From contig CANDCH010000013.1 in the NCBI GenBank assembly GCA_947383145.1, forward strand, positions 1 through 55,334: DNA of 55,334 nucleotides. The letters are read 5' to 3'. This document shows positions 47,875 to 55,334 of this stretch, piece by piece; within the stretch, counting starts at the first letter, position 1, and every line of letters starts with the position of its first letter. Position numbers and translations under genes: made by a program. The DNA comes from an uncultured bacterium. Its GTDB lineage: Bacteria; Bacillota; Clostridia; Oscillospirales; Oscillospiraceae. The notes beneath the pieces are model-generated. The model saw only the letters and a list, made by a program, of their open reading frames with translations. It was not told where the DNA came from and did no database searches.

Positions 47875-48849
47875 TTACAAAACTTTCTTTCCATGAATCA
47901 GCTTGTGGCAGCTTTCACAGACCACTAACGTTTTGCGCCGCTTGACAATCGTGATTTGCTCCCAGGGCTCTTTGCCCTGCAAATCCTTCACCTTACGGAC
48001 ATGATGGATTTCGTAGTGTTCTGCGTCAGTTGCCCCGCATAACTCACAGATTTTTGCGGACAGACGTTTCTCAAACGTTGTTGTAGTATACGCAAAGCGC
48101 ACAACGGCGTTTGATATTTGGCCAGTTGGGTTCCAAGCGTCCTTGCAATCGCGGTATTTGGCAAAATAACAACGCTTTCGGCCCTGTTTTGTCTCATAAG
48201 GCATGCCCCAATCGCCCTGGCTGTCTTTGTACTGAGCCATGATTTTACTGATTTTGCTTTTGTGCTTCCCCGCAAGGATTTTCAGACAGCTATACTCCAT
48301 CAAATATGCAAAGTAATTCAGTTTCCTAAAATTACTCGCTATAGAATAGTAATTGCAAATCCCCCTGAGTTCGGCATTATAGGCAGATACAATTTCAAGG
48401 TCAGTACACCGCAACAAGGATTTTCGGCGCTCCGGCTTGATTCTGCCATCCTCTGTCTGACGTATCACTTTGTTATCAAACAGAAAAGGCATAATTTTAT
48501 TATAAAATGGCACATAGAGTTCCACCATACCATTCAATGTCCTTTTGGTACGGCTTCCCGGCCCTCCGTGTTTAATCTGGCCATTGCGCCTGACTCGCAC
48601 ATCATAACCTAAAAATCTGGCATATTCATTGCTATGAGTGATAAGCGTCTTTTCCTTGCTAAGTTCCATTTTCAGCGTTCCCGCAATAAACTCCGACAAC
48701 TGGCGCTTGATTCGCGCACAGTCCCCTTTGCTCCCGTTCACTCCAATCAGAAAATCATCTGCATAGCGCACATATTTCAGCTTTTTGTCCGTCTGCGACT
48801 TGCAAGGCGTTTTAAGCAGTTCTTTCCGCAATACCTCCCGCCGATCCAA
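47875..48849 (-). pseudogene. Group II intron reverse transcriptase/maturase, C-terminal part
   Basis: The 324-residue fragment starts just before RT motif 5 (KYVRYADDFLIG). It has the maturase X domain (YNAELRGICNYYSIASNF) and an HNH endonuclease with two Cys pairs (CELCGATDAEHYEIHHVRKVKDLQGKEPW, CESCHKLIHG). The N-terminal RT motifs 0-4, about 250 residues, are missing. An internal ATG is open but there is no natural start. The protein is therefore inactive. Confidence 0.9.
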
Positions 48850-49660: not shown

Positions 49661-50515
49661 TTACCGGCTCTCCCGGTTCCGCTTGCGCTGCAATTCCCGT
49701 TCCAAAAGACGGATGATGGTTTCCTCCATCTGCTGGGGCGTCGTCCCCCTGGGGAAATACTTCCGCAGCTTGTCCATGCCGATTTTGACGGTTTCTTTCT
49801 GATTGCCCTTTTCCTCCGTCATAATGGCGAAAATGGCGTCCATATCAAGCTGTCCCGCCTGGCTCAGTTTCTTCATGCGCTGGGCCTGGGCCAGCGAGGG
49901 CGTGGCGTCCTCGCTCTCCATAGTGGTGAGCAGATTTTCCTGTTCCTCCTGGGTCAAAAAGGACAATTCCGCCCCAGGCGTGAGGGCGATCCTGCCCTCG
50001 TCCACCATCTGCAAAATAGGCGGCAATAACTCGGTCAGACGGATAAAGCGGTGTACCGTGGTCTTGCTGACGCCAAAGCCCCGCGCTACAATGTCATCCG
50101 TCTGTAACTTCGTACCAACTTGGTTGGAGGTTAAATCGGTGCGGTAGCCCTGCCGCTTCATGGCGTCCAGCTTCATCTTGTAGGCAAAGGCCCGCTCTGA
50201 CGGGAGAATGTTCTCCCGCTGGATGCTGCTGTCCACAAGGGTGATGATGGCCCGGTCGCAGTCTATGGGCAGAACAAAGGCGGGGACGCTCGCTATCCCC
50301 GCCAACTCCGCCGCCCGGACACGCCGCTGTCCCGATATGACCTCGTAGCCGCTTTTGTCATCCGCGGGCCGTGTGAGGATGGGCGCGGCCATGCCAAATT
50401 CCTTGATACTCTCCGATAACTCCATAAGCTGTTCATCCTCCACCAAATGAAAGGGATTGCCCGGAAACGGGCGCAAATCCTCTATTTTCAGCACAGTTAA
50501 TTCCTGCTTTTTCAT
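49661..50515 (-). CDS. ParB/RepB-like partition protein
   Basis: A 284-residue ParB-family protein. The N-terminal CTP-binding ParB domain has LVEDEQLMELSESIKEFGM and VISGQRRVRAAELAG (GxRR). The central helix-turn-helix is DDIVARGFGVSKTTVHRFIRL. The C-terminal 60 residues are a basic coiled coil. It belongs to a mobile-element block with the ydbC-like gene downstream and the fragment upstream; no matching ParA is adjacent. The ParA at 8701 is remote and unlikely to be its partner. Confidence 0.88.
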   Translation of the reverse strand: MKKQELTVLKIEDLRPFPGNPFHLVEDEQLMELSESIKEFGMAAPILTRPADDKSGYEVISGQRRVRAAELAGIASVPAFVLPIDCDRAIITLVDSSIQRENILPSERAFAYKMKLDAMKRQGYRTDLTSNQVGTKLQTDDIVARGFGVSKTTVHRFIRLTELLPPILQMVDEGRIALTPGAELSFLTQEEQENLLTTMESEDATPSLAQAQRMKKLSQAGQLDMDAIFAIMTEEKGNQKETVKIGMDKLRKYFPRGTTPQQMEETIIRLLERELQRKRNRESR

Positions 50516-50731: not shown

Positions 50732-51200
50732 CTGCGGCAGGTATCTCTCTGACGGCTGCTATTCAGTTTTCAAAAAAGGAATGTCGTTCCGCCTGTTTAC
50801 TCACGAATAGCCGGTTTTGAAAGTCCACTCCGCAAAATTTCCAGAGGATATAGAAAAAGCGCCCGCCCGTGGCAGTAAGGCCAAAGGCAAGCGTCTGTTT
50901 CCTGTTTATGTTCTCTAAAGATTTTTTACATCGTCAAGTCAGCCCCATTTGGGGGGAAAGAAGGCATAGATATATAATACTCCATAGTACCGCCCTGGTT
51001 TCCCTTGGGGCGGGATGTGCGGCGAGGCCTCTCCGCCGCCGCTCCATCCTATGCGGCTGAAATCGTCCCGTTCTGCAGGGAACCGGCCGGACGGCTGGCA
51101 CATAGAATGCTGCGGGCGATTGGCCGGGAAGCCTCCGCTCCACAGCGCTGTTCCGGCGTGTCCGGCCCGCGCTCCAGGCTTGAAAGGAGACACGCTATTT
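50732..51200 (+). other. Non-coding gap and leader of the collagen-like gene
   Basis: No gene is recognised in these 469 bases. The left part reads as decayed mobile-element DNA. TTGGGG (50949-50954), 18 bases, and TATAAT (50973-50978) form a plausible sigma-A promoter for the collagen-like gene. About 215 bases of GC-rich leader separate it from ATG 51201. A sporulation sigma promoter was looked for but none is convincing. Confidence 0.5.
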
Positions 51201-52313
51201 ATGTCTATGCCAAGTTTCCCCAATATTGATCCGCCCATCCAGCGGGAGGACGCGGTTAACCAGATCCTCTCCTCCATTGCCATGGAGGAGTTGGGCCTGA
51301 GCCACATCCTCAACGCCGAGGGCGAAAAACTGCAATATATTCTGGGCACCATCCCTGGTCTCAGCGGCCCCGCCGCCACCGTGAGCGACGTGCTGTCCGC
51401 CAACAAGAGCGTCCGGGGCCTGCTGGAGACCGCCGTGCAGAATCAGCTCTTTTTGAAGGCCAAGATGCAGGGTGCGCTCACCGCCTCCCCCATGCAGGGT
51501 CCCACCGGCCCCACCGGCCCCACCGGAGCCGCCGGCCCTGCGGGCGGTCCCACCGGGGCCACCGGCGCTACGGGAGCCACGGGCGCTACGGGGGCCACCG
51601 GCGCTACGGGGGCCACCGGCCCTGCCGGAGCTGACGGCCTCACCGGCGCCACCGGGGCCACCGGTCCTGCGGGCGTTGACGGCGCGGCCGGGGCCACCGG
51701 GGCCACCGGTCCTGCGGGCGCTGACGGTGCCATCGGCGCCACGGGCGCCACGGGCGCCACCGGAGCTACCGGCGCCACTGGCGCGACGGGCGCTACCGGG
51801 GCCGCCGGTGTCAATGGCGCGACAGGCGCCACCGGCCCTGCCGGGGCTGTGGGCACCACGGGGGCCACGGGCGCTACCGGCCCCACCGGCCCCACCGGTC
51901 CCAACGTCACCGCCACCTCCGCCTACGCCGCCAACACCAGCGGCACGGTGATCACCGTCATTCTGGCGGGCACCCTGGTGCCCCTGCCCAATGCCCAGCT
52001 GCTCTCCCCGGACATCACCGTTAACGGGGCCAACACCGTGTTCACGGTGAACACCGCCGGGCGCTACCGGCTCTCCTACGACATCAACACCACTGTAGCC
52101 CTGGCCAGCGGCACCCGGCTGCTCATCAACGGTGCGGCCAACACCGCGTCCACTGTGGCCCCGCTGGTGTCCCTGAGCCACTTTGCCAACGAGATCCTGC
52201 TGGATCTGAACGCCGGGGATACCGTTTCCCTGCAAATGTTCGGCATCGCGTCGGCGGCCACGCTGCTGCCCGGCTCCGCCGGGGCGTCCCTGACCATTCT
52301 GCGTCTGAGCTGA
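51201..52313 (+). CDS. Collagen-like protein with BclA-type C-terminal domain
   Basis: A 370-residue protein in three parts. Residues 1-95 are a helical domain (SILLS-type helix [23 protein letters not shown]). Residues about 97-232 are about 45 Gly-X-Y triplets, mostly Gly-Ala-Thr, which usually carry Thr-linked sugars. The final 135 residues ([31 protein letters not shown]) resemble the TNF-like BclA C-domain that trimerises on spore surfaces. One extra Gly after GPA breaks the triplet register early in the repeat. The protein is probably exposed on the spore. AAAGGAG precedes ATG 51201. Confidence 0.85.
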
Positions 52314-52326
52314 GGAGGGGTGCGCT

Positions 52327-52674
52327 ATGTCTCAGCCCACATTCCCCCAGATTGCTCCCCCTCTGACCCGGGAAGGGAGCCTCAACGAGATCATCGCCTC
52401 CATCGCCATGGAGGAACTCAGCCTGAGCCACATCCTCAACGCCGAGGGCGAGAAGCTGCAATACGTCCTGGGCACCCTGCCCGGGTTGGACGAGGCGGCG
52501 GCCCTTGAGGAGGTCATCCAGGTCAACCAGAGCGTGCAGGACACCCTGTCCGGCATCGTGGAGCAGCAGATGGTGCTGTCCGCCAAGCTGAGCGCGGCCC
52601 TGAGCGCCCCCATCGCCCCCGGCCCCACTGGCCCTGCGGGAGCCACTGGGCCGCTTATTTATGCACAACAGTAA
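52327..52674 (+). pseudogene. Second collagen-like gene, cut off after its first triplets
   Basis: The 115 residues begin with the same helical domain as the previous gene ([22 protein letters not shown] shared pattern). They reach GPTGPAGATG, then switch to LIYAQQ and stop. The remaining collagen repeats and BclA-like domain are missing. The break lies near 52650, and a serine recombinase gene occupies the next 1.7 kb. It reads as an interrupted gene whose 3' half may lie beyond the window. Confidence 0.85.
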
Positions 52675-52704
52675 CTTTTGCTTGGTGATGGGTCGTTAGG
52701 CCCG

Positions 52705-54390
52705 CTACATCGCGGGCTTTCGCTCTATCACCGTAAGTATGTTGTGATTGTTCTCGATGTAATCAAGTATACGCTGATACTCGTCGGCAAAATTGAAGTC
52801 CACCGTGATCTCCCCGTTCTCATGCACCCAAACCGTATCAACCAATTCAACCACGATACCGCGATTGAGGGTTTGAATGTTCCTATGCTTTAGAAAAGCA
52901 GTAAGATAGGGGTCGTCGGTGTCGATACCGTCAGCCATCACTTGCATTTCCTCTTTCAGATAAGAAATGTTCTGTTCAAGCTGGGCGATCTGCTCGGCAA
53001 TTTTGCCTTTTAAGCGGCGGTATTCCTCTTTGGTAATGTCGCCACTTTTCCAGTCAAGGTACAAGCTGTCGGAAGCGTCATTGTATTGCTTGAGCTGTTT
53101 TTCTGCCTGTTTCAGTGCAAGGGTCAATCGCTTGTTTTCCCGATTGATAACAGGCGCGTTGTTTATCCGTTCAATTTCTTCTGATAGTTTGTCCACAAGA
53201 GCGATCTGCACTTGCAGGGCGGCTAAAACCGCTTCTTCTAACTTATCCTGCCGGATAGAATGTTTACTGCAAGTCTTTTTGTCGGTAAAGGTACGACAGG
53301 CATAGTAGGCGAGATTGCGGGCGGTCTTTCGCCGCATAGCCTTTTTGCAGTCAGCACAGCGGACAAAACCGGACAATAGATAGACTTCCTGCTGGCCCGG
53401 TGCTGTCCTTGTGTCGCGCTGATGCAGGGCTTGTGCCTTTTCAAAGGTTTCCCGGTCAATGATTGCTTCGTGGGTGTTGGGGACAACAAACCATTCATCT
53501 TCGGGGACAGCGATTTGCTTGTGTACTTTGTAGCTGATGATACGATGCCGTCCCTGCACCATCACGCCGGTGTAAATCTCATTCTGCAATATCCTTGCAA
53601 CCGTGCTGGCAGACCACAGGCCATCGTTTTTGCTGGAATTGGGATTATTGTACTTGAACCCCTTTTTCTTTTTATAGGCTTCGGGGTTCGGCTCTCCCAT
53701 GCTGTTCAGCCTTTTGGCAATCCCCATTTTGCTGTACCCCTCATGGACAAACCAGTGATAAATGCTTCTTACGACTTCCGCCGCTTCTTCATCTATCAAG
53801 AGGCTGTTTTTGTCGTTGGGGTCTTTCTTGTAGCCGTATGTGGCAAATGCCCCGATAAACTCGCCGCGCTCCCGCTTCATTTTGAATGTCTTTCGGATTT
53901 CTTCGGAAGTGGTAGCGGCAAACTGCTCGTTGAACATTCCCCTGATCGGCACTTCAAGACCGCTTGCAGAATGTGGGTTTGCGTAGGTGTCGATGAATGG
54001 TGTGCCTGTGCAGATAAACCTTGCGCCGTTGATTGGGATAAATTCTTCAAGAAACTTTTGCTGATCTGCAAGGTTGCGGAAACCGCGTGCAAGTGACTTG
54101 ATAATCATGCAGTTTACTTCCTTGCGAACGATACAGCCCTCAAGCCGCTTGAAGTTTGGACGTGCTGTGTCTGTACCTGTCAGTCCGTCGTCGGCAAATA
54201 CATCTACAATCACATAGTTCCCCGGCTCAAAGTAACCGTCTACAAAGTCACGCAGAATTTTTTCCTGATTGATAATGCTCTCGCTGTCGTCCTCGTTGTC
54301 GTCCTCTTTGGATAGTCGGATATAAAGCCCAATTTTCCAAAACGGCTCTGCGCTGGCGCGTACCGTTCTGGTTTTGCGCGTGCGGGGCAT
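52705..54390 (-). CDS. Large serine recombinase
   Basis: A 561-residue site-specific recombinase. The catalytic domain starts with IGLYIRLSKEDD (catalytic Ser in the RLSKED motif), then DDGLTGTDTARPNFKRL. The recombinase domain (YGYKKDP, IYHWFVHEGYSKMGIAKRLN) and zinc ribbon (CADCKKAMRRK, CRTF, CSKHS) follow. A coiled coil and C-terminal tail complete it. It appears intact. The gene reads toward the collagen-gene break, as integrases often do at element ends. AAGGAGG lies before ATG 54390. Confidence 0.93.
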   Translation of the reverse strand: MPRTRKTRTVRASAEPFWKIGLYIRLSKEDDNEDDSESIINQEKILRDFVDGYFEPGNYVIVDVFADDGLTGTDTARPNFKRLEGCIVRKEVNCMIIKSLARGFRNLADQQKFLEEFIPINGARFICTGTPFIDTYANPHSASGLEVPIRGMFNEQFAATTSEEIRKTFKMKRERGEFIGAFATYGYKKDPNDKNSLLIDEEAAEVVRSIYHWFVHEGYSKMGIAKRLNSMGEPNPEAYKKKKGFKYNNPNSSKNDGLWSASTVARILQNEIYTGVMVQGRHRIISYKVHKQIAVPEDEWFVVPNTHEAIIDRETFEKAQALHQRDTRTAPGQQEVYLLSGFVRCADCKKAMRRKTARNLAYYACRTFTDKKTCSKHSIRQDKLEEAVLAALQVQIALVDKLSEEIERINNAPVINRENKRLTLALKQAEKQLKQYNDASDSLYLDWKSGDITKEEYRRLKGKIAEQIAQLEQNISYLKEEMQVMADGIDTDDPYLTAFLKHRNIQTLNRGIVVELVDTVWVHENGEITVDFNFADEYQRILDYIENNHNILTVIERKPAM

Positions 54391-54422
54391 GATACCTCCT
54401 TTCCCCCTATAATTACAGGTCT

Positions 54423-54451
54423 ATTATACCATTTTCGACCCATAATCACAA
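54423..54451 (-). promoter_or_regulatory. Sigma-A promoter for the recombinase gene
   Basis: Minus strand TTGTGA (54446-54451), a 17-base spacer and TATAAT (54423-54428), 33 bases upstream of the start. Confidence 0.72.
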
Positions 54452-54488
54452 GGTCTTTGTCAAAAATGGCAGCGGGAAAGTCGGCAAT

Positions 54489-54743
54489 TTATTTCAGGCT
54501 TAAAAAGTAATCGCACAGGGATTGCTTTAAGGTTTTGCTTTCAGATACAAAGCGGATTTTGACCGGCGTATCACCGCAGAGAAAGCAGTACGGATTGCCG
54601 ATCTGTTCCAGGTAGCTTTGCATTTTCTGTACGGCTGGCAGCGCAGCGTCAATGTGAATATTGCGAATATCAACTAAAGTGCTGCGGTCAACCTTCGTTA
54701 TATCCACGCTTCTCATTTCTTGAAGCTGGGATTGGCTAATCAT
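54489..54743 (-). CDS. Small mobile-element protein (DUF6870-like)
   Basis: An 84-residue protein: MISQSQLQEMRSVDITKVDRSTLVDI, then an IHIDAALPAVQKMQSYLEQIGNPYCFLCGDTPVKIRF segment. Similar small proteins occur in Firmicutes conjugative elements and are of unknown function. The internal methionine at 54743 is chosen because the sequence before it is not family-like. It is upstream of the recombinase on the same strand. Confidence 0.65.
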   Translation of the reverse strand: MISQSQLQEMRSVDITKVDRSTLVDIRNIHIDAALPAVQKMQSYLEQIGNPYCFLCGDTPVKIRFVSESKTLKQSLCDYFLSLK

Positions 54744-55179
54744 CCTTATTCCCCTTTCCGGCATAGCGTCATACAATCAATATGCGCTCCGGCTTGTACG
54801 TTATGAAAAAAGGGGCATAAATCGGACGGCTGGCGGCGACCAGCACCACGGGACTTTCACCCCCGCGTGGTTCTCACGCGGCCCTACCCATTGCCTGCGA
54901 CGCTTTTAACGCTCGGACTGTGGCTGTAAGGGAGTATCGTTAGCGTATGCGCCGCTGATTATAAGCTGCCGGCTTTTCGGTGTAGGCGGTTCTCGCTCTC
55001 CCGCAGGATGCGGGGTTATGGCGCACCCACCGATGCGGCGCATACAGAATGTGTCCGTTGCCCTATGCTGCGCCGCCGTTATCTTGCGGGCTTTCTTTGT
55101 CAAGGTGCAGCGCCGGGCCGGAGGCGGGGGAACATGGAAAGGGTAAGGTGTTCCGCCTGCCCTGCCGGGCCGGTTGCCG
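54744..55179. other. 436-base gap without a recognised gene
   Basis: No convincing protein is seen on either strand; short open frames here have no domain pattern. The region holds the three-hairpin cluster at 54829-54881 and is otherwise unassigned element DNA. Confidence 0.5.
54829..54881. ncRNA. Three tandem hairpins, possible structured RNA
   Basis: Stems GCTGG/CCAGC (54829-54833 with 54840-54844), GGG/CCC around ACTTTCA (54850-54862 area), and a perfect 7-bp CCGCGTG/CACGCGG (54863-54869 with 54875-54881). On minus it contains GTGAAAGTCCC, a string often found in group II intron domain I. The identity is unknown. Confidence 0.4.
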
Positions 55180-55334
55180 TCAGTCTAAACCGACGATGGC
55201 CTGAATGAGCTTGTTTTCCAGGTGGTGCTTCATCCACTCGTCCAGGCAGACATAGGGGTTGCCGTACTCGTCATACAGTGTCCGGGTACACAGCTTGTTT
55301 ATGTAGCCCTCGTAGTACCGCAAGACCTGTTCCA
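55180..55334 (-). CDS. C-terminal part of a mobile-element protein (runs off window)
   Basis: Fifty codons are open from the window edge to TGA at 55180-55182: EQVLRYYEGYINKL, DEYGNPYVCLDEWMKHHLENKL. This looks like a genuine coding end with Tyr/Leu-rich helices and no stops. I do not recognise the family, and the start is outside the window. Confidence 0.55.
   Translation of the reverse strand, partial: EQVLRYYEGYINKLCTRTLYDEYGNPYVCLDEWMKHHLENKLIQAIVGLD

Follow-up and report, generated by a model that had tools for sequence, protein, structure and literature searches.

A BclA-like collagen gene split by an element whose serine integrase belongs to a lineage favouring collagen-like genes

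A BclA-like collagen gene at the end of the analysed contig is interrupted within its Gly-X-Y repeat, and we consider it very probable that a mobile element has been inserted there by its own integrase; the element is probably of the integrative and conjugative kind. The integrase lineage favours collagen-like genes, and the precise split described here is part of that broad pattern. The analysis established the two ends of the element with their matching cores, both halves of the gene, an intact orthologue and a target preference found across the whole family of integrases. No developmental control is needed to explain this anatomy, for which a mobile element that targets collagen genes and inserts reversibly is enough; whether excision is in addition tied to sporulation is weighed below.

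The window, meaning the whole stretch of DNA analysed (55,334 bases), is the entire contig C13; the draft genome to which it belongs has 58 contigs and is 85% complete. A genome search found spo0A and spoIVA in this host, and matches to the sigma-factor family appear, by our reading, to include sigE and sigG. The features of the collagen operon and of the adjoining element end are collected in Table 1.

Table 1. Features of the collagen operon and of the element end in the window (coordinates are window positions).
Feature	Position	Strand	Remarks
Sigma-K-like promoter candidate, collagen operon	51082..51108	+	AC, 17 bases, CATAGAAT
Collagen-like gene 1, intact, BclA_C domain	51201..52313	+	ORF and domain search
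Collagen-like gene 2, interrupted 5' part, 106 codons	52327..52644	+	89-93% identity to three intact orthologues
Core dinucleotide at the cut	52645..52646	.	AC on plus strand, GT in element orientation; same core on C32, 11186-11187
Mobile element, one end	52645..55334	-	Runs off the contig; 96.5% identity over 2690 bases to the end of the 47-kb Oscillibacter sp. 1-3 element
Recombinase-side end of the element; its 23-base arm ends in TTATGCACAAC	52647..52669	.	Conserved in relatives, inverted at far end
Large serine recombinase (integrase), 561 aa, intact	52705..54390	-	PF00239, PF07508, PF13408; phrog_95 integrase
Recombinase promoter, sigma-A-type	54423..54451	-	TTGTGA-17-TATAAT
Gene for an 84-aa DUF6870 protein, a candidate recombination directionality factor	54489..54743	-	PF21757
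CATANNNTA box (CATAACGTA), about 60 bases 5' of DUF6870	54797..54805	-	No AC -35 at 16-17 bases

Gene 2 begins 13 bases past the end of gene 1, with the ATG at 52327 as its start. Its Gly-X-Y run is lost after three triplets (GPTGPAGAT), in agreement with the first-pass annotation, which had placed a break early in that run, and its apparent reading frame extends into the element as far as a stop at 52674. The promoter candidate of the operon has AC 17 bases 5' of a CATA box, which is a sigma-K pattern; it matches once per strand in the window, both times at the position of the candidate, where shuffling expects 0.5 matches per strand. A CATA box, searched with a broad pattern, lies about 80-105 bases 5' of the start in 13/13 distinct upstream regions of the genus (23 regions were tried, of which 22 were readable and 13 distinct). 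This box and the BclA_C domain suggest that gene 2 is a sporulation gene. Shortly upstream of the operon lie a truncated group II intron maturase with an HNH domain (window 47875-48849) and a ParB-like gene (window 49661-50515).

The first-pass annotation had suspected that a recombinase-bearing element splits a BclA-like gene whose 3' half should lie in frame at the far end of the element. That half was located on contig C32 of the same assembly, and it joins in frame with the half in the window. A genome search placed BclA_C matches at four places in the host genome, one of them near the end of C32: here a stop-free collagen region followed by BclA_C (E 9.5e-40) lies in antisense and abuts an element end that is the mirror image of the window's. 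Joined at their common core, the two halves give an open frame of 392 aa with an unbroken Gly-X-Y register at the junction and with BclA-like architecture, that is, a Gly-X-Y region followed by the BclA_C domain contributed by the C32 half. The joined protein aligns with the intact 392-aa orthologue of genome G342 over 392/392 columns without a gap (77.8% identity) and is 82.5% identical to the orthologues of G321 and G332. Even an irregularity of the repeat immediately after the cut is conserved (GPAEGVTG, aligned with GPAQGVTG in G342), and the downstream gene, a glycosyltransferase, begins alike in C32 and in three sister species. Because the orthologue alignment is gap-free and the next gene is the same, C32 holds the missing half of gene 2 itself; the full-length alignment and the next gene common to three sister species likewise argue that the pairing of the halves is not chance. 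Clean removal of the element would rebuild gene 2 to the base. Within the genus, the N-terminal domain occurs in 17/42 genomes, with a close intact orthologue in three.

Two neighbourhoods elsewhere in the assembly are worth recording. On C32 (8690-10190), a second serine recombinase, itself truncated, breaks the glycosyltransferase gene beyond the 3' half; on contig C14 (2815-4015) this N-terminal domain is found in a third gene and, beside it, there is a divergent gene-1-like start that ends after about 25 codons.

C13 and C32 each end within the element and collagen DNA is repetitive, which could raise the suspicion that repeats led to wrong contig joins or breaks. We regard such an assembly artefact as highly improbable, as the same junction structure recurs in independent assemblies of other species, on contigs that are long or finished, including the complete Hungatella hathewayi DSM 13479 and Clostridium asparagiforme DSM 15981 chromosomes.

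The recombinase beside the cut was found, as first annotated, to be an intact large serine recombinase reading toward the break, and a domain search detected its Resolvase, Recombinase and zinc-ribbon domains, all above cut-off, in one protein. Its sigma-A-like promoter has counterparts in 11/14 loci; no sigma-E/K box was seen within 260 bases upstream of the recombinase in 12/14 loci, and a lone CATACTGT lies 202 bases upstream in L089 and L136. The small DUF6870 gene is a candidate for the excision factor (recombination directionality factor): 24/43 DUF6870 matches lie directly upstream of a listed recombinase relative, as matched by hand.

Both ends were read for 19 elements, with core offsets fixed by eye on the first outputs. 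The cores are equal at both ends in 19/19 pairs, with symmetric arms around the dinucleotide, which in element orientation is AC in 16 and GT in three (the window, Oscillibacter 1-3 and G301); the GT-core elements sit in the opposite orientation to the AC-core elements. Fifteen of the 19 pairs lie on a single contig, with elements of some 3.5 kb up to some 50 kb (sizes worked out by hand); once rejoined, the flanks of 14 read through as an open Gly-X-Y frame, and those of the remaining pair (G311) as a transporter-like frame. In 18/18 collagen pairs, the coding strand reads ACN GGN at the joint, a Thr codon, its AC being the core, and then Gly. In-frame joining follows from this motif and so is not by itself proof for the four pairs on separate contigs; likewise, conservative recombination at ACN GGN must be in frame, so that the joints demonstrate precision and not selection. 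TC/nn, and then AT or CG, had been tried by hand as the core and were rejected for unequal cores or for joins out of frame or out of register. A search of the fetched loci for an empty site by regular expression gave no convincing site. On a 6.9-kb contig (L082), two collagen-like genes flank a glycosyltransferase gene, and each of the two runs out into an element end, a near end in one case and a far end in the other.

A mechanism can be proposed from these joints. The partners that the integrase would recombine are a symmetric attP, built of 23-base arms around a dinucleotide core, and a short attB within the gene; since the core belongs to a Thr-Gly codon motif, every collagen gene would present many possible landing sites. 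Insertion separates a promoter-bearing 5' part from a promoterless 3' part, and the integrase together with an excision factor, for which DUF6870 is the candidate, would recombine both ends and restore the gene to the base. Both this excision activity and the part of DUF6870 in it are inferred.

The insertion may also have been a one-time inactivation, after which gene 2 is dead and the element stays; this is quite possible, though we lean somewhat against it. A circle present in an assembly would show a second far arm, and none was found in 15 genomes (one far end in 12, zero under the pattern in three); searches for the junction of an excised circle gave one loose match in viral contigs, and two further scans were empty. 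Also in favour of inactivation are the glycosyltransferase gene after the 3' half, broken by its recombinase remnant, and the split collagen gene of G074, where the frame check found a frameshift in the 5' part. Against this stand the window gene, which is open in its two halves, as are the two element ends and the recombinase, the other collagen pairs, whose frame is open across the junction, and the clear mobility of the integrase in its relatives. The frame change in G074 lies within the collagen repeat about 90 bases before the cut (L070, 12500-12800), so that the host gene looks damaged as assembled, and the idea that every gene half is intact was given up; in the same check, the 5' side of G075 and G309 extends beyond the DNA read.

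Whether the element is conjugative can be judged from the 47-kb relative in Oscillibacter sp. 1-3, which encodes a CD1115-type VirD4, a CD1110-type VirB4, CD1108 and a relaxase, as well as a MobA/MobL protein, a topoisomerase and a DUF6017 gene. By this gene content, the relative classifies as a conjugative element of the CD1108/CD1110/CD1115 type: it has the same conjugation proteins, above NCBI cut-offs, as the elements of that name, which we take to be of the CTn4/Tn1549 type. The element end on C32 is 97.7% identical to this relative over 442 bases. The host draft contains just the two ends of the window's element, on C13 and C32, and when 16 kb of the 47-kb relative were searched against the draft, a single match of 93 bases resulted. 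The two ends appear to belong to one element, and the window's own element is probably integrative and conjugative as well.

Relatives of the recombinase at E 1e-100 or better occur in 48/300 genomes of the same bacterial family. The seven nearest loci were read: five of them (91, 89, 75, 54 and 52% identity) adjoin collagen-like genes and the remaining two (51-53%) adjoin a Cys-rich gene, while collagen-like neighbours were present at 5/21 further, more distant loci. A scan of named genomes returned 416 relatives, and a tally was made on the best 80 of them; a collagen neighbour was scored where at least five Gly-X-Y triplets lay within 300 bases of the recombinase end. By this rule, 42 of these best 80 loci have a collagen neighbour, as against 26/1975 control windows taken from the same loci. 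Within the best 80, the counts by identity were 4/4 above 95%, 13/18 at 80-95%, 3/6 at 65-80%, 8/16 at 54-65% and 14/36 at 45-54%. Recombinase relatives thus scored often adjoin collagen-like genes in both Oscillospiraceae and Lachnospiraceae. The collagen preference of the lineage is strong but not absolute, some close relatives being found in non-collagen genes (L087, L090, L091 and L104).

Thirteen loci form a group, well supported in the tree, whose insertions instead fall at GLLGPxGA-type codons. For Lysinibacillus piscis, the site corresponds to the Walker A region in the gene of an ABC transporter; the other members were assigned by their like flank alone. The tree has 71 rows, namely the window and 70 of the 80 loci (omitting L125, L140, L145, L148, L151, L154 and L156-L159), and its 51 collagen rows, partly labelled by eye beyond the strict 42, are a softer count than the 42/80. 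A related recombinase group that reaches the Bacillaceae (L147, L150, L152 and the L116 group) inserts near the Walker A codons of an ABC transporter gene.

The recombinase proteins of Agathobaculum, Hungatella and Clostridium sp. chh4-2 are identical, as are those of a second set from Flavonifractor, Mediterraneibacter and C. citroniae; such identity across bacterial families points to recent transfer between them. Matches in plasmids (18 records) and phages (six) were all below 60% identity. Six small elements of 3.5-14 kb keep a full-length recombinase, DUF6870 and both ends and have lost most conjugation genes, judging from their ORF lists. Their use as proof of domestication was weakened by L094, L096 and L097, whose cargo differs (an antiporter, an AMP-binding enzyme and a collagen gene), so that the small elements may be mobile in their own right. 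The element of L097, only 3.5 kb long, sits inside a collagen-like gene and carries as cargo a collagen-like gene of its own, of 347 aa (L224, 3021-4064).

A programmed rearrangement could be added to the mobile-element reading: late in sporulation the mother cell would excise the element and so rebuild the collagen gene for the spore surface, as happens with skin in sigK or SP-beta in spsM, with the integrase expressed constantly and DUF6870 induced by a mother-cell sigma factor. We regard this as possible but less likely than not, odds that the frame check on the split genes left as they were. The conserved sigma-K-like box of the collagen operon agrees with it, as does a CATANNNTA box within 130 bases 5' of DUF6870 in 28/29 loci with a DUF6870 identity of at least 50%; the box was found in 6/43 other loci, one of which (L108) is a partial-match artefact and among which the ABC-gene group scored 0/13, and in 148/7200 control windows. 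These loci are kin and two records were counted twice, however, and the distance of the box varies (27-63 bases), the window having no AC -35 at the appropriate spacing. The small elements, their conjugation genes mostly gone, nevertheless retain recombinase, DUF6870 and both ends, and SP-beta divides labour alike in the available text of two sources (PMC4191935; PMC5595907), which also makes the vegetative promoter of the recombinase neutral for programmed excision. Speaking against the programme are the sporadic distribution of horizontally moving elements, some of them inserted in ordinary genes, the differences in insertion from gene to gene and the frameshifted collagen gene of G074. A little less likely is the general proposal that, across many gut spore formers, one integrase lineage uses collagen-like spore-surface genes as landing sites and that mother-cell excision, by a vegetative integrase and a sporulation-induced DUF6870, rebuilds the gene while the forespore keeps the element, a transferable version of the sigK/spsM trick.

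Comparison with the split sporulation genes compiled in the accessible parts of PMC10747680 and PMC5595907 places the locus, taken as a collagen-targeting mobile element, among known systems. It has in common with skin, SP-beta, gin and yin a split gene, presumed here to be a sporulation gene, whose halves are in frame. In Bacillus subtilis, SP-beta lies in spsM, its sprA being vegetative and its sprB having a perfect mother-cell -10 and an imperfect -35, according to the portions of PMC4191935 available to us. Our locus resembles that arrangement (SprA/SprB) in its large serine recombinase with a vegetative promoter and in the split, presumed spore-envelope gene; in SP-beta it is a small second factor that bears the mother-cell -10 box. 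SP-beta is, in the same portions, a phage with demonstrated excision at sporulation, whereas here we have conjugative genes (in the relative), a collagen-repeat target and a predicted excision. The gin element in gerE of Bacillus cereus ATCC10987 is similarly a non-phage element with a serine recombinase and a directionality factor (here a candidate) in a sporulation gene, but its GirC is expressed at sporulation and its excision has been demonstrated, as far as the available text of PMC5595907 goes, whereas the present family is widespread and hosted by collagen genes.

The available description of the CD1108/CD1110/CD1115 elements in PMC3158075 makes no mention of a preference for collagen-like genes. 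Multi-targeting large serine recombinases (available text of PMC10083194) are alike in that one integrase group enters many target genes through a short motif, and differ in that the motif of the present lineage is met chiefly within a single class of repeat gene; the word "collagen" is absent from the main text of that source. We found no description of collagen-like genes as targets of recombinase elements in the literature searched, including the available text of PMC3158075, PMC10083194 and PMC13188886, a search that lay mostly outside subscription papers.

A possible reason for landing in spore-surface genes is that the Gly-X-Y code repeats a short integration site many times over, and that the gene which contains it is probably not expressed during growth. 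We predict that the spore-coat collagens of gut anaerobes exist both split and whole, and annotation would call the split ones broken; DUF6870, for its part, gains a candidate function.

A further gene fragment was seen in the host draft (contig C53, 2793-3155): a sigK-like 3' part reads from ECIANEILMYF, with stops directly upstream and the contig end 38 bases off, and no separate sigK-like 5' part was recognised among the matches in this genome. The break resembles a split at what we assume to be the place where skin elements insert. The same draft, 2.5 Mb in size, contains 25 matches to the serine Recombinase domain.
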